Of a stretch of DNA of 24,015 nucleotides, positions 8,318-19,768 are shown in pieces. The position numbers and the translations under genes were made by a program. The DNA lies in IMG/VR virus record IMGVR_UViG_3300032235_000863, positions 1 to 24,015 of that record. The stretch is one strand, 5' to 3'. Source of the stretch: a virus. The number at the start of each line of letters is the position of its first letter. Position 1 is the stretch's first letter. A model generated the notes under the pieces. The model made no database searches and was not told the DNA's origin. It saw only the letters and a program-made list of their open reading frames with translations.

Positions 8318-8977
8318 ATGGCATTTTTAATGGATGATGTTGCTGCAGGTGGTCAACTTATATGTGGGGCAGGAACACCAAAAGCACTTGGAATGGGTGA
8401 TTCTAAAATAAGAGGATCTGGATTTTTTGAAGGTCCATTTCAAGTAGGAAAAGCAAGTGACCATTCAATTCCGAGAGCAACACTCTTAATTGGAAGACTT
8501 GCAAATTCTGATGTTGGGACTACATTATATTCTTTATGGTGTAGAGCTTATTCTAGATTTCAAAGTTTTGTGAGAGTAGACACTCTTTTAAAATCAACTT
8601 TTATTGAAGCAAAAGTTGTTAGAACAAAAATTCTTCAAGCATCAATTAAAAACTTTGTAATTCCTCACCCAACAAAAGAAGGAAAACAGTTGGTTCATAC
8701 CTGTTTAGAAGGACCAGAAAATGGTGTTTATTTTAGAGGAAGACTGTTAAATAAAACACAAATAGAACTACCAGAGTACTGGACAGGATTGGTAGATGAA
8801 GATACAATTACAGTATCTATTACTCCAATCGGAGCTCATCAAGATATTATCGTAAAAAGAATTGGAGATAATACCATATATCTTCAGGCAAAACCTGGCA
8901 TTCCCATTAATTGTTTTTATCATATTTTTGGAACCAGAAAAGATGTACCACAATTAGTAACGGAGATTGATGCATAA
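8318..8977 (+). CDS. Virion-associated protein with IPHP...EGP.VY.RG module (first paralogue)
   Basis: A 219-residue protein with a good ribosome binding site (AAAGGAGA, 8304-8311) before the ATG. Residues 110-219 form a module beginning IPHPTK, followed by C(L/I)EGP...VY.RG(R/K)L, LP.YW..LVD, TPIG..Q and INC. The next gene carries the same module. The motif F.I.HP.....L.H...EGP...VY.RG is known from C-termini of various phage fiber and structural proteins, where it is thought to be a tip or folding domain; a catalytic role has not been shown to my knowledge. The N-terminal 109 residues (Gly-rich start, then basic strands) do not resemble the paralogue's. The gene ends in a TAATG one-base overlap with the next, so the two are coupled. 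Confidence 0.7.
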   Translation: MAFLMDDVAAGGQLICGAGTPKALGMGDSKIRGSGFFEGPFQVGKASDHSIPRATLLIGRLANSDVGTTLYSLWCRAYSRFQSFVRVDTLLKSTFIEAKVVRTKILQASIKNFVIPHPTKEGKQLVHTCLEGPENGVYFRGRLLNKTQIELPEYWTGLVDEDTITVSITPIGAHQDIIVKRIGDNTIYLQAKPGIPINCFYHIFGTRKDVPQLVTEIDA

Positions 8978-9720
8978 TGGCATACACATTTGAAAAATAT
9001 GGAACTTTTGCAGGTCCTGGAGTAAGTGTTGAGTATAGGGATAATGATGATTTTTCTGTAGAACCTTTTGATGGGTACTTCAATTTAACTGATGTATCCA
9101 TGGTTCTTGCTAATACAACAGCGTCTCCTGCTGATTACGTTTATATGCATTTAAATGGGACCAGTACATCTACAGTCACGTTAGAAAGAAGCACAGGTCC
9201 CATTCCAACCTTTAATATTGAAGCAAATAATGCAAATTTTAGTAATAATGTAAATATCACTAATAATTTAGAAGTATTTGGGGCTATTAAAGGTCCAACA
9301 ATTGAGGATCTTAAAGATAAGATTAATTCTAAAAAAGGATTTGATATTCCACATCCCACTAAAAAGGATCATAGGCTTAGATATATTTGTATTGAAGGAC
9401 CTTCTGCCGAAGTTTATCTTCGTGGAAAACTAGAAAATGAATCTGTAATAAAATTACCTGATTATTGGATAAATCTAGTTGATGTTGAAACTATTGGTGT
9501 ATCTTTAACTCCAATAGGACATTATCAAGAATTATTTGTTGAAAGGATAGAATGGGGGACTCAAATTATAGTTAAAAATAATTCCGCAACAGCAATTAAT
9601 TGCAATTTTGTTGTTTTTGCAGAGAGAAAAGACACTGAAAAGAATGTTTCAGAATACCAAGGATTGACACCAAACGACTATCCAGGAGATAATAAAGAAT
9701 ATAATATCAATGGTCTATAA
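8977..9720 (+). CDS. Virion-associated protein with IPHP...EGP.VY.RG module (second paralogue)
   Basis: A 247-residue protein. Residues about 120-230 repeat the module of the previous gene: IPHPTK, C(I)EGP, VYLRGKL, LPDYW, LVD, TPIG, INC, ERKD. I count about 45 identical residues over some 95 aligned by eye. The N-terminal 119 residues differ from the paralogue: an aromatic/acidic start, then a fiber-like stretch (NGTSTSTVTLERSTGPIP; NFSNNVNITNNLEVFGAIKGP) that looks like a trimeric shaft. An additional acidic/Asn-rich tail of about 15 residues follows the module. It starts and ends in TAATG overlaps, so translation of 8318-10397 is probably coupled. Likely a minor fiber or tail decoration; function not known. 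Confidence 0.7.
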   Translation: MAYTFEKYGTFAGPGVSVEYRDNDDFSVEPFDGYFNLTDVSMVLANTTASPADYVYMHLNGTSTSTVTLERSTGPIPTFNIEANNANFSNNVNITNNLEVFGAIKGPTIEDLKDKINSKKGFDIPHPTKKDHRLRYICIEGPSAEVYLRGKLENESVIKLPDYWINLVDVETIGVSLTPIGHYQELFVERIEWGTQIIVKNNSATAINCNFVVFAERKDTEKNVSEYQGLTPNDYPGDNKEYNINGL

Positions 9721-10398: not shown

Positions 10399-10407
10399 TA
10401 ATAAATA
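10399..10407 (+). promoter_or_regulatory. T4-type late promoter element before the glycine-rich gene
   Basis: TAATAAATA matches the ATAAATA core of T4-like late promoters recognised by the phage sigma factor gp55. It sits in the only gap of this stretch, about 35 nt upstream of the ATG at 10441, with no ribosome binding site resembling AGGAG in between. Assignment is by motif and position. Confidence 0.5.
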
Positions 10408-10440: not shown

Positions 10441-11358
10441 ATGAGTTATTTAAGTCAATTTGCTAGTGGCGGAACTATTCCATTTAAAATAAATCCATCT
10501 GCAATTCCTCTAGATCTTCTACTTGTTGGTGGAGGTGGCGGCGGGGGTGATTATTATTATGCAGGTGGCGGTGGTGGTGGAAGAGTTGTTTACATTCAAA
10601 CTGTTTATGTTGTAAAAGGAGATACTTATACAATAACAATTGGAGCTGGAGGTGCAGGAGCTTCTTCAGGATCAACTTCAGGATCTCAAAATGGCGGTGA
10701 TACTCTCTTTGGACAAATAAGATCCGAGGGTGGTGGTGGAGGTGGCGGGTATTATTTTACGTCTGCAAAAGCAGGTGGTTCTGGTGGCGGTGGATCATAT
10801 TATTACACCACAGGAGGAGCTCCTTTGTCTTCAACTGCATCCGGATCATTTACATTTAATTTTTTATCTCCCAATCTTAGCGGTTCAACTTCTTCATATG
10901 GAAATAGTGGAGGAACCGGTTCCAGCACAATTGCTGGAGCTGGAGGTGGTGGTGCAGGATCAGTTGGTGGAAATGGTAGTAGTAACGCAACTTATAATGG
11001 CGGAAATGGAGGAATAGGAATACAAAATAGTATAACAGGAACTGCTACTTATTATGCTGGAGGAGGTGGTGGGGCCGGATATTCTACTTATGGTTCAGGA
11101 ACTGGTGGAGCTGGAGGTGGTGGAAATGGTAGTTATTATATTAACAATAATGGAACTGCTGGAACACCTAATACTGGTGGTGGAGGGGGTGCATCAAACT
11201 ATGATTATGGCGGAAAAAATGGTGGATCTGGAATTGTTATAATTGCATATCCCGATACATATGCAGCTCCAACTTCCATTACAGGAACTAATGATCAGCC
11301 AACAAGATCTGGGTACAGAGTTTATAGATTTTATAGTTCAGGTTCAATTACATTTTAA
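10441..11358 (+). CDS. Glycine-rich fiber-tip adhesin-like protein
   Basis: A 305-residue protein dominated by long runs of glycine broken by Tyr, Ser and Asn (residues about 30-265, for example LLLVGGGGGGG, YYYAGGGGGGRVVY, GGGGASNYDYGGKNGGSG). It begins with a short non-repetitive segment and ends with a beta-rich cap, GIVIIAYPDTY then YRVYRFYSSGSITF. This arrangement is that of the glycine-rich domain family found at phage fiber tips; in the T4-like phage S16 the gp38 adhesin packs poly-glycine II helices into a receptor-binding sandwich. Here the role is probably surface recognition at the fiber tip. There is no similarity to a fiber chaperone such as T4 gp38 proper. The glycine tracts are encoded by GGTGGAGG-type DNA, which gives long open shadows in other frames. 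Confidence 0.75.
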   Translation: MSYLSQFASGGTIPFKINPSAIPLDLLLVGGGGGGGDYYYAGGGGGGRVVYIQTVYVVKGDTYTITIGAGGAGASSGSTSGSQNGGDTLFGQIRSEGGGGGGGYYFTSAKAGGSGGGGSYYYTTGGAPLSSTASGSFTFNFLSPNLSGSTSSYGNSGGTGSSTIAGAGGGGAGSVGGNGSSNATYNGGNGGIGIQNSITGTATYYAGGGGGAGYSTYGSGTGGAGGGGNGSYYINNNGTAGTPNTGGGGGASNYDYGGKNGGSGIVIIAYPDTYAAPTSITGTNDQPTRSGYRVYRFYSSGSITF

Positions 11359-11364
11359 AAACTT

Positions 11365-11751
11365 ATGGCACACTTTGCAGAAATTAATCACGAAAATCAG
11401 GTTCTTCGTGTAATTGTTGTTGGGAATTCGGATTGTATGAATGAACAAGGACAAGAATCTGAAGATGTTGGAATTGCATTTTGCAAGTCCCTATTTGGAG
11501 ATTATACAAATTGGAAGCAAACCAGTTATAATGGAAATTTCAGAAAAAATTATGCAGGAGTTGGATGTTATTATGATGAAATGAGAGATGCTTTTATTCT
11601 ACCAAAACCATTTGAAAGTTGGAGATTAAATGAAGTAACTTGTAGGTGGGAACCTCCATTCCCAATGCCAGAGCAGGACCCAGAAAACCCAACTCCATAT
11701 AGATGGTTAGAAGACAAGCAAGAGTGGGAAAAAATCACAATACCTTCTTGA
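11365..11751 (+). CDS. Small conserved phage protein, MAHFAEI family, function unknown
   Basis: A 128-residue soluble protein. The start MAHFAEI..ENQVLRVIVV, the middle E..GIAFC..LFG....W.QTSYNGN.R..YAG.G..Y and the Trp/Pro-rich end (FESW.L......W.PP.P.P, then Y.W.E....W) are features I recognise from a protein common in marine T4-like and other cyanophages, usually near tail-fiber genes. No function is established to my knowledge. It has three cysteines and no membrane segment. The gene starts 6 bp after the glycine-rich gene without a clear ribosome binding site. Its stop codon lies inside the -35 box of a sigma-70 promoter at 11748. It closes the late tail block before the early-type island. 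Confidence 0.75.
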   Translation: MAHFAEINHENQVLRVIVVGNSDCMNEQGQESEDVGIAFCKSLFGDYTNWKQTSYNGNFRKNYAGVGCYYDEMRDAFILPKPFESWRLNEVTCRWEPPFPMPEQDPENPTPYRWLEDKQEWEKITIPS

Positions 11752-11776
11752 CACCAGCACCGCACCGTGCTATGAT
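11748..11776 (+). promoter_or_regulatory. Near-consensus sigma-70 (early-type) promoter
   Basis: TTGACA at 11748-11753 and TATGAT at 11771-11776 are separated by exactly 17 nt, a near-perfect match to the bacterial sigma-70 consensus. It does not resemble the ATAAATA late elements in front of neighbouring tail genes. The predicted start is near 11783, about 20 nt before the ATG at 11803. The -35 box overlaps the stop codon of the preceding gene. A palindromic site (11762-11770) fills the spacer. It probably drives the small-gene/tRNA/Mom island early in infection using host RNA polymerase. Confidence 0.75.
11762..11770. promoter_or_regulatory. Palindromic site in promoter spacer, possible operator
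   Basis: GCACCGTGC is a perfect dyad around its central base and lies between the -35 and -10 boxes. A matching site, GCACGGTGC, lies at 11821-11829, and the surrounding 10-mers (11761-11770 and 11821-11830) are exact reverse complements. Placement between promoter boxes is where a repressor would block polymerase. No protein is known to bind it; the pair could also pair in the antisense direction. Confidence 0.35.
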
Positions 11777-11985: not shown

Positions 11986-12161
11986 GACCAGAAACAAGAG
12001 AATCAATGGAAATGCTTTTCACTGCTAAGTGGAACGTTCCGAAGGCAGCAGAAAACTGTAATCTCACCAATAAAGAAATGAAGATTACGTTTAATGAATA
12101 CTGCCGTTTACATCCCGCCACTTATATGGTAGAATCTAACAGTCAACTCAGTTTCCTCTGA
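11982..12161 (+). CDS. Small early-type protein overlapping the previous gene, function unknown
   Basis: A 59-residue protein starting in an ATGA overlap. Sequence features: MRPETRESMEMLFTAKWNVP, then AAENCNLTNKEMKITFNEY and a short tail. The middle, AAENCNLTNKEMK, reads like a helix-turn-helix recognition unit ('..AAE.C.(I/L)(S/T)..E....F..Y'), as in small phage regulators, but it is too short to be sure. Its last codons form part of a terminator hairpin, and the stop TGA lies inside the 3' arm. A second sigma-70-like promoter is embedded in its 3' third. Reading-frame quality, coupling and plausible composition support it as real. Confidence 0.65.
   Translation: MRPETRESMEMLFTAKWNVPKAAENCNLTNKEMKITFNEYCRLHPATYMVESNSQLSFL
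12107..12135 (+). promoter_or_regulatory. Second sigma-70-like promoter, inside the end of a gene
   Basis: TTTACA at 12107-12112 and TAGAAT at 12130-12135 are 17 nt apart, each one mismatch from consensus. The predicted start is near 12142, so it would feed tRNA-Leu and the genes downstream of the terminator at 12145. Being inside a coding region lowers confidence. Confidence 0.45.
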
Positions 12162-12168
12162 GTTTTTT
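12145..12168 (+). terminator. Rho-independent terminator between small genes and tRNA-Leu
   Basis: AACTCAG (12145-12151) pairs perfectly with CTGAGTT (12158-12164) around a 6-nt loop, followed by a run of T to 12168. It ends 2 nt before tRNA-Leu. The stem is only moderately GC-rich, so some read-through is likely. Confidence 0.7.
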
Positions 12169-12170
12169 AT

Positions 12171-12243
12171 GCCCGTGTAGTCCAGCGGAAGAGACAAACG
12201 ACTTAAAATCGTTCCAGCGTCGGTTCGAATCCGACCACGGGTA
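12171..12243 (+). tRNA. tRNA-Leu (anticodon UAA), short variable loop
   Basis: A full cloverleaf of 73 nt. Acceptor GCCCGTG pairs with CACGGGT (first pair G-U), D arm is GTC/GAC (3 bp), anticodon stem AACGA/TCGTT holds loop CTTAAAA with anticodon TAA, T arm is GTCGG-TTCGAAT-CCGAC, discriminator A; CCA is not encoded. The loop CTTAAAA, 3-bp D stem and A73 are typical of bacterial tRNA-Leu(UAA), but the variable loop is only CCAGC, not the long arm of class II tRNAs. It would read UUA (and UUG), codons common in this AT-rich phage. Confidence 0.9.
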
Positions 12244-12275
12244 TTAGAGGAAATAAACAACCTCTAAATAAACAA
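12244..12275. repeat. Inverted repeat plus 10-bp direct repeat after tRNA-Leu
   Basis: TTAGAGG (12244-12250) and CCTCTAA (12261-12267) form a 7-bp inverted repeat directly abutting the tRNA 3' end. The loop AAATAAACAA (12251-12260) is repeated exactly at 12266-12275. CTAAATA at 12264-12270 resembles a late promoter element for the gene at 12293. No T run follows, so it is not a terminator; it may mark tRNA 3' processing. Confidence 0.6.
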
Positions 12276-12278
12276 AAG

Positions 12279-12293
12279 TAGGAAAAATTCCTA
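12279..12293 (+). promoter_or_regulatory. Hairpin masking the ribosome binding site, ending on the start codon
   Basis: TAGGAA (12279-12284) pairs perfectly with TTCCTA (12288-12293) across a 3-nt AAA loop. The 5' arm is the Shine-Dalgarno (AGGA) and the 3' arm ends on the A of the ATG at 12293. This would hide the start in the folded RNA. Confidence 0.5.
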
Positions 12294-12562
12294 TGAAGTA
12301 CAGAATTGATGCCAGATATGTTTGGTATAATCGCGGAACTCAAATTGTTCTGATGTACTTTATAAATCAAATTCCTTTTACTTTTGATGATGTTCCAGAT
12401 GATGGTCTTTATGATTTGAGTCTGATTGAAGTAGCAGACAACGAAAGACGCTTTGAACCAGAAGATCTTTATCAAGCATCATATTATCTGATGTTGGAAG
12501 AGTGTCACCCTCTGATGTTTGAACTTGAACTGGAAAATCCAGAAATGTTGCCTGCAGATTAA
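12293..12562 (+). CDS. Small acidic protein between two tRNA genes, function unknown
   Basis: An 89-residue acidic protein. It starts with beta-like strands (MKYRIDARYVWYNRGTQIVLMYFIN), has a D-D-x-P-D-D-G loop (FTFDDVPDDGLYDLSLIEV), and ends with an acidic helix-rich part (FEPEDLYQASYYLMLEECHPLMFELELENPEM). There is no membrane segment or known catalytic motif. I do not recognise a function. It sits between tRNA-Leu and tRNA-Thr; only 2 nt separate its stop from tRNA-Thr, so the tRNA must be cut out of the same transcript. Net negative charge and small size are typical of phage proteins that bind host nucleic-acid-binding proteins, but that is speculation. Confidence 0.75.
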   Translation: MKYRIDARYVWYNRGTQIVLMYFINQIPFTFDDVPDDGLYDLSLIEVADNERRFEPEDLYQASYYLMLEECHPLMFELELENPEMLPAD

Positions 12563-12564
12563 AT

Positions 12565-12636
12565 GCCCTTGTAGCTCAGTGGTAGAGCAACGGTTTTGTA
12601 AACCGTTGGTCGCTGGTTCAAATCCGGTCGGGGGCT
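12565..12636 (+). tRNA. tRNA-Thr (anticodon UGU)
   Basis: A 72-nt cloverleaf. Acceptor GCCCTTG pairs with CGGGGGC (two G-U pairs), D arm GCTC/GAGC with loop AGTGGTA, anticodon stem ACGGT/ACCGT with loop TTTGTAA and anticodon TGT, variable loop TGGTC, T arm GCTGG-TTCAAAT-CCGGT with wobble pairs. The discriminator is U and CCA is not encoded. It reads ACA, a frequent Thr codon in the fiber genes here. Confidence 0.93.
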
Positions 12637-12639
12637 CTT

Positions 12640-12657: not shown

Positions 12658-12852
12658 ATGTCATTAATTTCACAAAAAGACCGAGAACTTGCTATTGAAG
12701 CGTTAGAGCATTATAAGACAAAAATTCCACTAACCATCACTATGGGAGAACTTGTTTCTGATACCGTCATCAAACAAGACGAACAAAAAATGATGGAGAT
12801 AAACGCTCTAATCAATTGGATTAAATTGGAGTATCAAAAGAATGAACATTAA
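12658..12852 (+). CDS. Small helical protein, function unknown
   Basis: A 64-residue protein, predicted by eye to be two helices: KDRELAIEALEHYKTKIP at the N-terminus and KQDEQKMMEINALINWIKLEYQKN at the C-terminus, joined by a short turn. Composition suggests a helical hairpin or small coiled coil. No ribosome binding site is seen; a hairpin ends 2 nt before the ATG. The 3' end overlaps the next gene by 11 nt. Function unknown; similar short proteins are common in the small-gene clusters of T4-like cyanophages. Confidence 0.7.
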   Translation: MSLISQKDRELAIEALEHYKTKIPLTITMGELVSDTVIKQDEQKMMEINALINWIKLEYQKNEH

Positions 12853-13003
12853 ACTCTGGTATTGCGAGTCCATGAAACAATGGCGATGGACTCTTACAGA
12901 TAGTTCGCGTCCTATTCGTAAGCAAGAATCTGGTCAGCAACCAGATCTTCGCGATGCAATGAATGATATTGCAAGTACAGTAGAATATATGATGAAATCC
13001 TAA
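12842..13003 (+). CDS. Small Trp-rich protein upstream of the Mom-like gene, function unknown
   Basis: A 53-residue protein starting inside the end of the previous gene (11-nt overlap). The start MNIKLWYCESMKQWRWTLTD has three Trp and reads as two beta strands, as in a small single-domain beta-sheet; the end (QPDLRDAMNDIASTVEYMMKS) looks helical. A GGAG at about 12829-12832 could serve as a ribosome binding site. It ends 5 nt before the Mom-like gene, suggesting coupled expression. It could be a partner of that enzyme, but nothing beyond position supports this. Confidence 0.65.
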   Translation: MNIKLWYCESMKQWRWTLTDSSRPIRKQESGQQPDLRDAMNDIASTVEYMMKS

Positions 13004-13008
13004 TACAA

Positions 13009-13656
13009 ATGAGTAAAAATACTCAGTACTTTATAGATAGAGTAAGTAAAGAAGAAATCAAAAATCTTCTTTACAATTTTCACTATCTTAAAGACGAATC
13101 AAAGGACTTCAAAAGTGGATACAATTACGGTTTATTCAAATCCAGTATTTCTGACGTTTTGCATATCGGTAACTGCTACGCTACTTGTGTTTTCACTAAA
13201 ATCCCCGTCCCAGAAATAGCAGTTGGGGCATTTGGATTGCAAAGACATGAACAAGAAGGTTTGTATGAACTTTCTAGGTTATGTGTACACCCCGACATTC
13301 AAAAGACAGAGTATAATATAACTTCTTGGTTTGTCAGTCGTTGCATTAGGAGATTTAGAAAAGATGCCAGCGTTCGTTGTATTCTTAGTTACGCTGATGC
13401 TAATCACCACACTGGAACTATATACAGAGCTTGTAATTTTGGTTACTACGGGTTAACAGATCCCAAAAAAGATTTTTATTATGCCGATGGAACAAAACAC
13501 TCAAGAGGAAGTGTAAAGGGTGCTAAAGGTGAATGGAGAGACCGAAGTAGAAAGCATAGATACTTAATGATATTTGATAAGGAACTCAAAGAACGGTTGA
13601 CATGGGAAGAAGAAAAGTGGTATAATAGTAAAGACGATACTGAATCGTTACAGTGA
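13009..13656 (+). CDS. Mom-like GNAT-fold DNA-modification protein
   Basis: A 215-residue protein resembling phage Mu Mom and related GNAT-fold proteins. Residues 86-96 read YELSRLCVHPD, the beta4 segment of the family (E-L-S-R-L). Residues 127-148 hold SYAD, then GTIYRACNFGYYG, the 'S.AD....GTIY.A.NF.Y.G' block seen in Mom. In Mu, Mom converts adenines in phage DNA to N6-carbamoylmethyl-adenine and so blocks many restriction enzymes. Basic C-terminal residues (HSRGSVKGAKGEWRDRSRKHRY) suit DNA binding. It lacks a clear Shine-Dalgarno and is the last gene of the early-type island, ending before a strong terminator. DNA modification is inferred from family; another GNAT substrate is possible. 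Confidence 0.8.
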   Translation: MSKNTQYFIDRVSKEEIKNLLYNFHYLKDESKDFKSGYNYGLFKSSISDVLHIGNCYATCVFTKIPVPEIAVGAFGLQRHEQEGLYELSRLCVHPDIQKTEYNITSWFVSRCIRRFRKDASVRCILSYADANHHTGTIYRACNFGYYGLTDPKKDFYYADGTKHSRGSVKGAKGEWRDRSRKHRYLMIFDKELKERLTWEEEKWYNSKDDTESLQ

Positions 13657-13676
13657 CCCAAAAAGTGTGACTTCAG

Positions 13677-13700
13677 AACCCTCTTCGGAGGGTTTTGTTG
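13677..13700 (+). terminator. Strong rho-independent terminator after the Mom-like gene
   Basis: AACCCTC (13677-13683) pairs perfectly with GAGGGTT (13688-13694) around a UUCG tetraloop, followed by a T-rich tail (TTGTTG). It separates the island from the late fiber operon. Confidence 0.9.
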
Positions 13701-13703
13701 TAT

Positions 13704-13711
13704 GATAAATA
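13704..13711 (+). promoter_or_regulatory. T4-type late promoter for the 2008-residue fiber gene
   Basis: GATAAATA carries the ATAAATA late core (13705-13711), directly after the terminator at 13677-13700 and about 30 nt before the ATG at 13742. The terminator-then-late-promoter arrangement marks a clean transcription boundary. Confidence 0.65.
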
Positions 13712-13741: not shown

Positions 13742-16700
13742 ATGGGTCTTTCACGCCTCGATAATTTTTTGAAGTCTGTAAGAGGAACAATATTATATGT
13801 TGATCCAAATAGTCTTGACTCCACTGATAGTATTGAAAATCAGGGGAATAGCCTCACAAGACCATTTAAAACTATTCAAAGAGCATTAATTGAAGCATCT
13901 AGATTTTCTTATCAAAGAGGATTAAACAACGATAGATTTGGCAAAACAACTATTCTAGTTTATCCAGGAGATCATATTGTTGATAATAGACCCGGTTGGA
14001 TTCCTGACGGGACAAATAATTATAAGTTAAGAAATGGAACATCATCAAATGATTTTCCACCATTTGATTCAACAACTAGTTTTGATTTAACAGACCCAAA
14101 TAATTCTCTCTACAAATTGAATAGTATTCATGGTGGTGTTATTATACCTCGTGGTACTTCACTTATTGGTATGGATCTTCGCAAAACAAAGATCCGTCCA
14201 AAATATGTTCCAAATCCAGAAAATGATAATATTGAAAATTCTGCTATTTTCCGCATAACAGGTGGATGTTATTTTTGGCAGTTTTCTATTTTTGATGCGG
14301 ACCCAAATGGATTATGCTATGTAGATTATACAGATAATCTGTTTGTACCCAATTTTTCTCACCACAAATTAACAGCATTTGAATATGTTGATGGAGTAAA
14401 TAATGTCACGATTCAAGACGTATTTTATCAAAATCGTCTGAACTATGATAGAACTGATCTTGACATGTATTATGAAAAGGTTGGTATTGCATACGGAGCT
14501 TCTTCTGGAAGAGCAATTGAACCAGATTACCCATCAGATTCTTTAGATATTGAACCAAAAATTGATGAATATAGAATTGTTGGATCTACTGGTATTTCTG
14601 TTGGTATTACAAGTATTAGATCTGGAAATGGTGTTGTTTCTTCTAATAAGATTAGAGTTACTGCAGTAAATCCCATTCCAGGATTAGAAGTTGACACACC
14701 TATCCGCATTGAAGGAATTTCTGCAGATGGATATAACGGTCAATTTGTTATTTCTGAAAAATTAGATGATCGTACTATTGTTTATACAGTTCAAAATTCA
14801 CCTGCAGTAGCACTTCCCTCTCCTGCAGGATCAATTCTATCTCTTTCTTCTGATACTGTTACTTCAGCTTCTCCTTACATTTTTAACATCTCAATGAGAT
14901 CTGTGTATGGAATGTGTGGTGTTTTAGCAGATGGAGATAAAGCTGGTGGATTCAAGAGCATGGTTATTGCTCAGTTTACTGGTATTGGACTACAAAAAGA
15001 TGATAAAGCTTTCGTAATTTATAATCCAGACACAGGATTATACGAAGATAATACAATAGTTGGTAATGAAACTCTAAGTTCAAATTCTAGATCTGTATTT
15101 AAACCAAAATATAAAAATTATCACATTAAATGTATTAACGATGCGTTCATTCAAAACGTTTCAATTTTTGCCATTGGATATGCTGAACATTTTTCATCTG
15201 AAAGTGGTGGAGATATGTCCATCACGAACTCTAACTCAAACTTTGGTGCAAAATCATTAGTTTCTAGTGGATTTAGAAGAAACGCTTTTCCAAGAGATGA
15301 TTTTGGTTACATAACACATATTATTCCACCAAAAGAATTTCCTATAGATGAATACTCAGTTGAATTTGCATCATTAGATGTTGCAACAACTATAGGAATT
15401 GGAACAACTACTGAAAGATTGTATCTTTATTCTCAAACAGATCAGGATGTTCTTCCAGAACATGTTATTGAAGGTTTTAGAATTGGGGCAAAGGAAAATG
15501 ATTATTTGAATTTAACAATATCTCAAAATGGAATTACTGATCAATACATATCTAGAATTGTGATGTCAAATTCTCAGACAAGTTCTGAGAAATCTTTTAG
15601 AGTTTCTAGAAGTATTGCAGGAATCAACAGTATAGGTCAATATAGCACTACCTCTCAAGAAAATGTAATTACCTTACAACAAATTCATACGTTTGAAAAT
15701 GGAGAAACAGTTCGTGTCATCAGTGATAATGGACAATTACCAGATGGTTTATCTCCAAATAGTGTTTATTATGTAATTACAAATGCCAATGCTTCTAGCG
15801 GACTTACTACGACAAGAAATATTAAACTTGCAAATACACTAAACGATGCGAAAAACTCCAATGAAATTTCTATTAATAATATAGGTGGAAGTTTAACTAT
15901 AGTAAGTAGAGTATCAGATAAAAAACCAGGTGATATTGGGCACCCAATTCAATGGGATACTTCGCAAAATCAGTGGTATATAAAAGTTGCAACTGCATCT
16001 ACAGATAATACGATTAGATCAGCTTTCTCAGCACTAGGAACTCCTATTCTTGGTAATGTAACTCCAAGAACATTTATTACTCGTAAAAAAGATAATAGAA
16101 ATTCTTCCGATAGAATTTATAGATTTAGATACGTAATTCCATCAGATACAAATAATTCTTATGGAAAACCACCAACAGATGGATTTGTAATTCAAGAATC
16201 AAATACATCTATTGGATCAACTGATGGTGAAATCCAAACTTACTTTGGAAGTGGATCCTTAAGCAATATTAATCAACAAAGAAACTTTAGATTTATTTCA
16301 AATGCAAATTGGAGTGGAAATTCTGCCAATATTTTAACAGAACTTCCCCACAATTTATTAGTTGGAACTCAAGTTGAGTTAGTAAATATTGAAAGTGGAT
16401 ATAATCCAACTGGAGCTGCACAAACTGGATTTAACAGACTATACACTGTTACAGGTGTAACAAGTTCTAGAGAGTTTGTTGTAGGATTAAATACAGATCC
16501 TGGTGCATTTTTAAATGATATTAATGTTCGTAATACATCTCTACCTTATTTTAAAAAGAAAAAGTATCTAACAACCTATTTTATTCAACAAACTAAAGAA
16601 GTTCAAAAATATATTACAGGAGAACAGGATGGAATTTACCACATAACTGTTCTTAATGCTTCAAACTCTCCAGTAGTAAATCCATTTTTTGATGATAATT

Positions 16701-19700
16701 ATGCACAACCGGTTAAGAATCTTTATCCACAATTAAACAGAGATAATCCAGTTTCTGATCCAACAGAAACTAATTCTTTTGCATCATCATCTTTAATTGG
16801 CGAAGTTGTAGTTAATGATGTAAAAAGTAGTATTACAAAAGAAACGATTAATAAATTATTAAAAGATGTTAATATTGGTATTGGTGTAACAAATATTATA
16901 TCTACAACAAATACATCCCATGATATTTTTACATCTGTTGATCATGGATTTAATAGAATTACAAAAGTTGGTATCGCCAAAACTGGTACTGGATATGTGC
17001 CTGGAACGTATCATAATGCAAAACTAATTGGATTTGTTGGATCTCCATCCGGACTTCATGCTACAGCAAAAGTAACAATTGATTCTTACGGAAGTATTTC
17101 TAATGTTATTATTATGCATGGGGGAAGTTCCTACGGAATCGGTAACACTTTATCAGTTGTAGGAATTCCAACAATCACTGGACATAGTGTTGGTGTGGTT
17201 TCTGTTACTAAAATATATGATAATGTAGGAGATGTCATCAAAATTTCTGGCATTTCTTCCAACTCATATTCGGCATACAATGATTTGTATAGAATCGTTA
17301 ATGTTAAAGTTGGAGCTGCTAAGAGTTTTGTTACAGAATCTGCATATTCAGTCGTAGGTGCTGCTATAACCACAACTGGAATCGGAAATACTATTTCCTC
17401 TGGGTCATTTGCGTATTTAACTGGAAAGGCAGTTGCTATTTCTAGCGTTAGATATACACCATCTACAGGTATTGCAACAATAGTAACTTCCAATTATCAT
17501 GGATTTAACATTGAAAATAAAATTAGATTAGCTGGATCTGATGCATCATTATACAATGGAGATTTTGTCATTACCAGTAATGTCGGGTTAACTTCATTCA
17601 CTGTTAATGTCGGAATTAGAACACTCTCTCCAAACGTCACCACTTTGGGATATGTTTATCCTAGAGGAATCGCATCAAATGATGGGATTGTTTCATCAGA
17701 TAATGAAAATATTGGTGGTAGAATGGCATATACTTATGCCGGAATTACAACGTCCCTTTATTTTGAGATTTCAGATTCAACGACAGATAATGTAACTATT
17801 AGAGGAATTCAAAATCTTGACATAAGAATAGGTGATTATCTACAAATAGACAATGAAATAGTCAGAGTTAAAACTACTGTTTCTCAAACAATTGCCGAGG
17901 GTGATCCAATTTATGTTTTCAGAGGGGCATTTGGAACAATAGCAGCAAGTCACAGAATTAATTCTACTGTCAAGAGAATATTTGTAAATCCTGTTGAATT
18001 GAGAAGAAATTCTATTATTCGTGCTTCTGGGCATACTTTTGAATATGTTGGATTTGGTCCAGGCAACTATTCTACCGCATTCCCAGATAAACAGGACCGC
18101 TTAATTTCTGCCCAAGAGGAACTCTTAGCACAATCTACCAGAAAAGATGGGGGTGTAAACTTCTACACTGGTATGAATGATAAAGGAATTTCATACTCGG
18201 GTAACAAAAAATTAAGCACAATTAATGGACAAGAAGAAATTTTTGATACTCCTTTCCAGACTGTAACTGGTGAAGATATTTCAAATGAATCTGCAATTAA
18301 TATTACCAGTGCAATTGAAGGTAATTTCACAAGATCTATTCGGGTTGAAGGTGGATCTGATGGTAAAGCGATTTCAGAATTTAATGGACCTATTTTAATA
18401 AATGACAAATTAACGTCAACTTCACCTAGAGGTGTTGAAGCGGTTTCTCTATTTTTACAAGGTGATGCTTCAGTTTCTAGAAAATATACTGTTGGTATTT
18501 CCACACCATCACTTGCAGGAAACCCAGGAGACGTTCAATATAATGCATCTCCAACGACAGGTGATTATATTGGATGGGTTTGGACTACAAATAATCAGTG
18601 GGAGAGATTTGGTAGAATTTTCCCATATTCAGAAAATACTATCGGCGTTTCTGCGAATAATAGTTATGTTGGTCTTGCTTCTAACCTCAACTTTACTGGA
18701 TCTGGATCAGTTAAAGTTAGTGGATCATATAATTCAGTTGGTATAGCAACATTTACTATATCGGCCGATCCTTCTGCAATTGGACTTCGTAGGGAAGGTT
18801 CTTATCTTGGAGTTACAACTCAAATTGATTTAAGAACTAGAAACTTAGATCTCACTACACAAATTACACCAGCAGGAATTTCTACAGTTACTATAGTTGG
18901 ACTTGGTACTACAGAATCTCATAGAGCTACCCAATTTATCAAAATTGGAGCAACAGCAACTAATTTCTTAAAAGCTGGTGGCGCAGATTCTACACTTACA
19001 TCTTCTGAAGTTACTACTGCTCTTGGATTTATTCCTGCAAACTCATCTTCAGTCTCTGGCGAATATCCATTAGGAAACTCTGTAGTTCTTGATAGTATTG
19101 ATCAGTCAATAAATGGAGGACCATTTAATGGTTCAAGAACTGATTTTACGATGAAAATTAATGGAAATGCATTTATCCCTGCAGGTAATTCTGCTAACTT
19201 GCTTGTTTCTATTGGTGGAGTAATTCAAAAACCAGGAACAGATTATACAATTGTTCAAACTGCAGGAGCAAATACTAGCACAATTAGATTCGCAACTGCC
19301 CCACAAACAGGGAAGTCTCATTTTATTGTTGCATTAGGAGGTCAAGGTGCATTATTAAGTGACCTTGCATGGAATAACAAAGGCGAATTAGTTGCCGCTG
19401 TGGGCGATAATACTGCAGCAATTGTAGGTCCAGGTGCTGATGGAACTTTCTTTACCGCAGATTCAACAGTTGGAGTTGGAGTAACTTGGAAAACTCTTTA
19501 TGATGTTACAACGACATCTACTGGTAAAACACTGACAAATCGTGAGTTTTGTAATGTAACTGCAAATAGTATCACAATATCTCTTCCATCAACTCCTCAA
19601 ACAGGATGGTTTGTTCTTATCGGAAATACTGGTTCATTTACCAATATAACTGTCGGTAGAAATGGAAGTAATATTATGGGACTTGCAGAAGATATGATAT

Positions 19701-19768
19701 TAGACTTTGAATATGCTTCAGTTGGGTTTATGTTTGTCAACGCTTCTCTTGGATGGAGATTAATTTAA
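13742..19768 (+). CDS. Giant modular tail-fiber / virion structural protein
   Basis: A 2008-residue protein. The start (LSRLDNFLKS..GTILYVDP, then RPFKTIQRALIEASRF, IIPRGTSLIGMDLRKTKIRP) matches the opening of pectin-lyase-like beta-helix virion proteins found in T4-like cyanophages. Later parts are strand-rich with repeating (V/I)GI.T/VGIT motifs. A GxGY-type repeat pair (GTGYVPGTYHN, GGSSYGIGNT) lies near residues 1075-1143. Near 1593-1623 is GNPGDVQYN...GDYIGWVWTT..QWERFG, and near 1803-1866 a fiber module (FIPAGNSANLLVSIGGVIQKPGT..TI) that recurs widely in cyanophage fibers. The last 120 residues (NSITISLPSTPQTGWFVLIG, NGSNIMGLAED, ASLGWRLI) form a likely tip domain. No enzyme signature was found. 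Probably an attachment structure; a specific gene name would be a guess. Confidence 0.8.
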   Translation: MGLSRLDNFLKSVRGTILYVDPNSLDSTDSIENQGNSLTRPFKTIQRALIEASRFSYQRGLNNDRFGKTTILVYPGDHIVDNRPGWIPDGTNNYKLRNGTSSNDFPPFDSTTSFDLTDPNNSLYKLNSIHGGVIIPRGTSLIGMDLRKTKIRPKYVPNPENDNIENSAIFRITGGCYFWQFSIFDADPNGLCYVDYTDNLFVPNFSHHKLTAFEYVDGVNNVTIQDVFYQNRLNYDRTDLDMYYEKVGIAYGASSGRAIEPDYPSDSLDIEPKIDEYRIVGSTGISVGITSIRSGNGVVSSNKIRVTAVNPIPGLEVDTPIRIEGISADGYNGQFVISEKLDDRTIVYTVQNSPAVALPSPAGSILSLSSDTVTSASPYIFNISMRSVYGMCGVLADGDKAGGFKSMVIAQFTGIGLQKDDKAFVIYNPDTGLYEDNTIVGNETLSSNSRSVFKPKYKNYHIKCINDAFIQNVSIFAIGYAEHFSSESGGDMSITNSNSNFGAKSLVSSGFRRNAFPRDDFGYITHIIPPKEFPIDEYSVEFASLDVATTIGIGTTTERLYLYSQTDQDVLPEHVIEGFRIGAKENDYLNLTISQNGITDQYISRIVMSNSQTSSEKSFRVSRSIAGINSIGQYSTTSQENVITLQQIHTFENGETVRVISDNGQLPDGLSPNSVYYVITNANASSGLTTTRNIKLANTLNDAKNSNEISINNIGGSLTIVSRVSDKKPGDIGHPIQWDTSQNQWYIKVATASTDNTIRSAFSALGTPILGNVTPRTFITRKKDNRNSSDRIYRFRYVIPSDTNNSYGKPPTDGFVIQESNTSIGSTDGEIQTYFGSGSLSNINQQRNFRFISNANWSGNSANILTELPHNLLVGTQVELVNIESGYNPTGAAQTGFNRLYTVTGVTSSREFVVGLNTDPGAFLNDINVRNTSLPYFKKKKYLTTYFIQQTKEVQKYITGEQDGIYHITVLNASNSPVVNPFFDDNYAQPVKNLYPQLNRDNPVSDPTETNSFASSSLIGEVVVNDVKSSITKETINKLLKDVNIGIGVTNIISTTNTSHDIFTSVDHGFNRITKVGIAKTGTGYVPGTYHNAKLIGFVGSPSGLHATAKVTIDSYGSISNVIIMHGGSSYGIGNTLSVVGIPTITGHSVGVVSVTKIYDNVGDVIKISGISSNSYSAYNDLYRIVNVKVGAAKSFVTESAYSVVGAAITTTGIGNTISSGSFAYLTGKAVAISSVRYTPSTGIATIVTSNYHGFNIENKIRLAGSDASLYNGDFVITSNVGLTSFTVNVGIRTLSPNVTTLGYVYPRGIASNDGIVSSDNENIGGRMAYTYAGITTSLYFEISDSTTDNVTIRGIQNLDIRIGDYLQIDNEIVRVKTTVSQTIAEGDPIYVFRGAFGTIAASHRINSTVKRIFVNPVELRRNSIIRASGHTFEYVGFGPGNYSTAFPDKQDRLISAQEELLAQSTRKDGGVNFYTGMNDKGISYSGNKKLSTINGQEEIFDTPFQTVTGEDISNESAINITSAIEGNFTRSIRVEGGSDGKAISEFNGPILINDKLTSTSPRGVEAVSLFLQGDASVSRKYTVGISTPSLAGNPGDVQYNASPTTGDYIGWVWTTNNQWERFGRIFPYSENTIGVSANNSYVGLASNLNFTGSGSVKVSGSYNSVGIATFTISADPSAIGLRREGSYLGVTTQIDLRTRNLDLTTQITPAGISTVTIVGLGTTESHRATQFIKIGATATNFLKAGGADSTLTSSEVTTALGFIPANSSSVSGEYPLGNSVVLDSIDQSINGGPFNGSRTDFTMKINGNAFIPAGNSANLLVSIGGVIQKPGTDYTIVQTAGANTSTIRFATAPQTGKSHFIVALGGQGALLSDLAWNNKGELVAAVGDNTAAIVGPGADGTFFTADSTVGVGVTWKTLYDVTTTSTGKTLTNREFCNVTANSITISLPSTPQTGWFVLIGNTGSFTNITVGRNGSNIMGLAEDMILDFEYASVGFMFVNASLGWRLI

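Follow-up and report, generated by a model that had tools for sequence, protein, structure and literature searches.

A Mom-family gene carried as cargo beside the tail-fibre gene in uncultured T4-like cyanophages

The product of Mu Mom is N6-carbamoylmethyl-adenine, which blocks cutting by bacterial restriction enzymes, whereas T4 protects its DNA through cytosine changes. Involvement of acetyl-CoA and iron in the biochemistry of Mu Mom has reportedly been proposed. In the com-mom operon of Mu, an overlapping upstream gene encodes the zinc-finger translational activator Com. The Mom family comprises GNAT enzymes that move an acyl group to adenine N6, and jumbo phages have fusions of Mom domains with predicted nucleases, for which a role as a restriction-modification-like weapon was proposed (PMC7824862). 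Mom is not new to T4-like phages: Mom proteins are already annotated in the Aeromonas phages PX29 and AS-zj (Straboviridae), and the Synechococcus phage S-SSM7, a Kyanoviridae cyanophage, has a stand-alone Mom on record (YP_004324330.1). In the literature searched, Mom was not directly reported from cyanophages.

In this study, we analyzed a 24,015-nucleotide stretch of viral DNA (positions 1 to 24,015 of IMG/VR record IMGVR_UViG_3300032235_000863; hereafter the window). The baseplate and fibre genes of the window match those of Synechococcus T4-like phages, and its structural gene order is syntenic with those of S-SM2 and SynMITS9220M01. Among 37 contigs from relatives that carry mom, 19 have photosystem reaction-centre genes, of the psbA/psbD type and often in two copies. 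Because of the baseplate and fibre matches and the photosystem genes in relatives, the window is, as judged from its gene content, an incomplete fragment of an uncultured Kyanoviridae-like cyanophage. The features of the mom locus are listed in Table 1.

Table 1. Features at and around the mom locus (positions in the window)
Feature	Positions	Strand	Remarks
Sigma70-like promoter	11748..11776	+	TTGACA-17-TATGAT (with TG); ahead of the gene/tRNA cluster ending in mom
tRNA-Leu(TAA)	12170..12244	+	Left part of conserved cassette
89-aa conserved cyanophage protein	12293..12562	+	phrog_4134
tRNA-Thr(TGT)	12565..12637	+	Next genes in cyanophages lacking mom: phrog_2818 gene, then fibre gene
64-aa small ORF	12658..12852	+	Overlaps 12842; optional neighbour, in 28/81 loci
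53-aa conserved cyanophage protein	12842..13003	+	phrog_2818, E = 4.6e-27; directly upstream of mom
mom-like gene	13009..13656	+	215 aa, ATG start; Mom-family protein, GNAT fold
Sigma70-like promoter	13597..13626	+	TTGACA-18-TATAAT, extended -10 (TG), 12/12; within mom 3' end
Candidate short non-coding RNA with terminator hairpin	13632..13704	+	Stem 13674-13683/13688-13697, UUCG loop
T4-type late promoter motif	13705..13711	+	ATAAATA; serves the fibre gene at 13742
Tail-fibre gene	13742..19768	+	phrog_529; right flank of insertion site

The mom-like ORF matched the Pfam family PF25680 (Mom) with an E value of 1.3e-19 and 71.1 bits against a cutoff of 27.1, covering positions 2-198 of the 202-position profile, and the PHROG family phrog_1384, "Mom-like DNA modification protein," with an E value of 1.4e-28. 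In a direct BLASTP comparison, Mu Mom aligned to the 215-residue protein over 133 columns at 25% identity (E = 4e-6), and the identity between the two lies at about 22-25%. The similarity of the product to the Mom family is thus well above chance. The blocks from which a first-pass annotation had recognized a Mom-like enzyme in a T4-like phage were found where it had placed them (YELSRLCVHPD at residues 86-96, SYAD at 127-130, and GTIYRACNFGYYG at 136-148), and the assignment itself was borne out by both families and by the structural comparison described below. Relatives of the protein are encoded in 286 candidate stretches of viral contigs; mom is under purifying selection, with dN/dS values of 0.06-0.12 between the window gene and its close relatives.

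When the window protein by itself was searched against PDB sequences, it returned noise only, and a profile search reached the Mu Mom crystal structure 8bv8 weakly (E = 0.014); a comparison at the level of structure was decisive for the Mom assignment. An AlphaFold2 model was built from 43 aligned relatives without templates (pLDDT 80.6, pTM 0.76). Its top solved match was 8bv8 (Foldseek E value of 8e-11), and 8bv8_A superposed with Z 17.9 over 183 residues against Z 13.9 for the runner-up GNAT, the model not being fully independent of Mu Mom because four Mu-type sequences were in its input alignment. The structural check proposed in the first-pass annotation thus placed Mu Mom, and not an unrelated GNAT, on top. 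An ordinary GNAT acetyltransferase, acting on a protein, a tRNA, or a small molecule, could resemble Mom through its fold alone, and GNAT structures such as 1y9k (Z 13.9) do match the model by the hundred. However, these matches have lower scores, with Mu Mom standing 4 Z units above every other GNAT; the Mom HMM scored far over its cutoff, while the Pfam search matched no acetyltransferase family besides Mom; and the conserved residues and motifs of the family are present. We consider that this explanation can hardly be right.

The active site was compared in an alignment of 23 Mom proteins from Mu, Listeria phage A511, ICP1, and Aeromonas, Enterococcus, Mycobacterium, and other phages. In window numbering, H25, Y26, E87, D130, G136, Y139, N143, G148, and H164 do not vary among the 23 proteins, R90 and N103 are shared by 22, and position 106 is a serine in 21; S127 is also among the family-conserved residues present in the window protein. 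The Mom motifs H-Y, E-L-x-R, N-x-x-S, S-x-A-D, and Y-x-A-x-N are all present. Mu S124 corresponds to S106 and Mu N121 to N103, and the title of the 8bv8 entry describes S124A as an inactive mutant of Mu Mom. A seven-sequence alignment had set Mu S124 opposite N103, which would have meant an altered active site; the 23-protein alignment overturned this. An insertion of 3 residues just before the N-x-x-S motif is particular to the cyanophage clade to which the window protein belongs.

In a phylogenetic tree, the window clade groups with gp15 of Roseobacter phage CRP-212 (MZ892988) with 100/100 support, and a long branch separates the window clade from Mu Mom. CRP-212 gp15 is the nearest Mom protein from a cultured phage (51.5% identity), but it differs from the window protein in having a C-terminal MazG nucleotide pyrophosphohydrolase domain (PF03819), and its host is not a cyanobacterium. 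The CRP-212 record annotates MazG alone, from a later start codon than that of the Mom-MazG fusion (L083:5986-6918). S-SSM7 Mom lies apart from the window clade, with the Enterococcus and ICP1 Mom proteins; it is 26.5% identical to the window protein, and its gene occupies another locus, adjoining a tRNA-Leu and near psbA. From this placement, cyanophages probably acquired Mom at least two times, that of S-SSM7 being probably a separate acquisition. The PX29 and AS-zj proteins belong to other Mom clades and have other gene neighbourhoods. The window clade is thus distinct from the Mom proteins of T4-like phages already on record.

Mu Mom and the window protein share the fold, the family HMM, and the conserved residues, including the counterpart of Ser124; they differ in the clade-specific short insertion, in gene neighbourhood, and in com, which the window lacks. 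From these likenesses we infer the substrate and chemistry of the window enzyme, and we regard it as likely that it modifies adenine N6 of phage DNA against host restriction and that its gene is a cargo gene, probably an early one. The enzyme would attach an acyl-derived group (carbamoylmethyl in Mu) to adenine N6 of the replicating phage DNA, and the modified adenines would leave host restriction enzymes unable to cut the progeny genome. Given the 22-25% identity to Mu Mom and the 3-residue insertion near the N-x-x-S motif, another transferred group or target sequence is possible. Protection of phage DNA by a Mom relative that has diverged to a group, target base, or sequence other than that of Mu would also suit the fully supported separate clade with CRP-212 on its long branch, but the family-conserved residues, the counterpart of Mu S124 included, are kept, and we judge such a divergence to be unlikely, if worth weighing.

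The locus was then compared with those of cultured relatives. SynMITS9220M01 and S-SM2 have a tRNA-Leu, a phrog_4134 gene, a tRNA-Thr, a phrog_2818 gene, and a tail-fibre gene in this order, and the window has the same order with mom added after the phrog_2818 gene and ahead of the fibre gene; no Mom match was found anywhere in the genomes of S-SM2 or SynMITS9220M01. Among 63 IMG/VR contigs chosen for a fibre late-promoter motif with at least 1.5 kb upstream, and so not an unbiased sample, mom was present at this junction in 30 and absent in 33. The gene is cargo that a relative may have or lack, with the tRNA/small-gene cluster on one side and the tail-fibre gene on the other, and since it recurs at one site in many uncultured relatives, it looks like widespread cargo and not like a novel type of system. 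If its predicted function holds, Mom-type DNA protection would extend to uncultured cyanophages of a seemingly common group whose cultured same-site relatives are without mom.

The neighbours of mom also bear on what the enzyme is for. Base modification could serve something other than self-protection, marking the DNA of the host or of rival phages or, together with a nuclease, forming a weapon akin to restriction-modification, the role proposed for the fusions in jumbo phages (PMC7824862). The window protein gave weak matches to HNH/homing-endonuclease families of PHROG, but it is a stand-alone single domain without a nuclease fusion, and mom lies among tRNAs and small genes conserved in cyanophages, next to a fibre gene. 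We consider a weapon of this kind very improbable and retain protection of the phage's own DNA as the preferred function. The first-pass annotation had also suggested that the ORFs at 12658 and 12842 might be accessory factors of Mom. Both ORFs are conserved, but this suggestion did not hold: a homologous pair occurs in S-SRM01, whose whole genome has no Mom family match, and the phrog_2818 gene is present in 82 cultured cyanophage records, including those of the mom-less S-SM2 and SynMITS9220M01. Because both ORFs occur in cyanophages without mom, they are neighbours and not partners of Mom. No zinc-finger cysteines like those of Com were found in either product (zero Cys in 12658 and one in 12842), and the window has no counterpart of the Mu activator; Mom would probably act here without a Com-like factor.

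We also searched eight long contigs of mom-positive relatives, which may be incomplete, for the enzymes of cytosine modification. Each carries one mom, and none encodes a protein of PF00303 (thymidylate synthase/dCMP hydroxymethylase type), the family that includes dCMP hydroxymethylase, or a C5-cytosine methylase (PF00145). With both families missing from these contigs, an adenine route in place of the cytosine route of T4 is plausible from gene content, and it could explain how some cyanophages evade host restriction. Adenine methyltransferases of the D12 type accompany mom in several of the relatives, and some encode N6/N4 methylases; owing to the D12-type enzymes, Mom need not be the sole adenine modification there.

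Next, we consider how mom may be transcribed. The promoter at 11748-11776 is a strong one, and when 106 distinct homologous regions upstream of the cluster were compared, 87 matched it at 11 or more of the 12 positions. The late promoter motif ATAAATA has four copies in the window, which is rarer than chance; those at 10401, 13705, and 20417 lie directly before the genes at 10441, 13742, and 20450, and after that at 10401 the next copy comes only beyond mom. Since the promoter at 11748-11776 is of the host (sigma70) type, early transcription of mom from it is probably the simplest reading. We infer this timing with reserve because a terminator-like hairpin at 12145-12164 separates the promoter from mom. 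Transcription from this promoter would run through mom and stop at the hairpin after it, and the fibre gene would be driven by its own late promoter.

The second sigma70-like promoter, within the 3' end of mom, is a second and separate lead on phage gene regulation, together with the short RNA that may follow it. The Leu of an LTW motif is coded by TTG in 35 of 35 distinct relatives' genes (TTG makes up 8% of the mom leucine codons elsewhere), and Tyr-Asn is coded by TATAAT in 26 of 26 relatives; the relatives share ancestry, so these counts are not independent. In one relative (L044), TATAAT is kept despite a shifted frame, with a spacer of 17. A hairpin with a UUCG loop starts about 50 nt past the -10 element, and the fibre late promoter then follows. 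The candidate RNA at 13632-13704 has a fold z score of -3.0 and matched no Rfam family, and GTGTG is present at 75 of the 92 distinct junctions, its background frequency being 3.6%. A 22-base pattern of the promoter/RNA module was found in 33 contigs, with a single copy in each, and in 32 of these it immediately precedes a late-promoter motif. It seems to us evenly balanced whether the last codons of mom also function as a sigma70-type promoter from which a conserved, terminator-ended phage RNA of about 60-75 nt is made.

A similar module is found in mom-less cyanophages (e.g., L085 and L095), in which a TTGACA-17-TAATAT promoter close to the 3' end of phrog_2818 is followed by GTGTGAAGGAAGTGC and then a terminator. 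Because of this occurrence, the RNA module probably predates the insertion of mom. Yfr1-type cyanobacterial RNAs contain the ultraconserved motif ACUCCUCACAC (PMC2518516), and a GUGUGA(A)GGA motif of the candidate RNA, seen at the junctions of L095 and L115, is nearly complementary to it. This complementarity raises the idea that the RNA binds a host regulator, perhaps as a Yfr1 sponge, which we regard as improbable. The pairing stays speculative because the duplex energies are modest, 0.6-2.6 standard deviations better than those of shuffled sequences, and because the copy in the window has the GUGUGA core alone.

Two further gene arrangements were noted outside the mom locus. On the contig IMGVR_UViG_3300049043_000133 (L072, G034), the photosystem reaction-centre match at about 47278-49930 is in pieces, one of which has internal stops, and the broken gene possibly reflects an intron or an insertion. 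In the window, the adjacent genes at 8318-8977 and 8977-9720 match the same PHROG families (17490 and 28536), which suggests a tandem duplication; at the corresponding place in S-SM2, two genes assigned to a single T4-like cluster (GC 1158) lie side by side.
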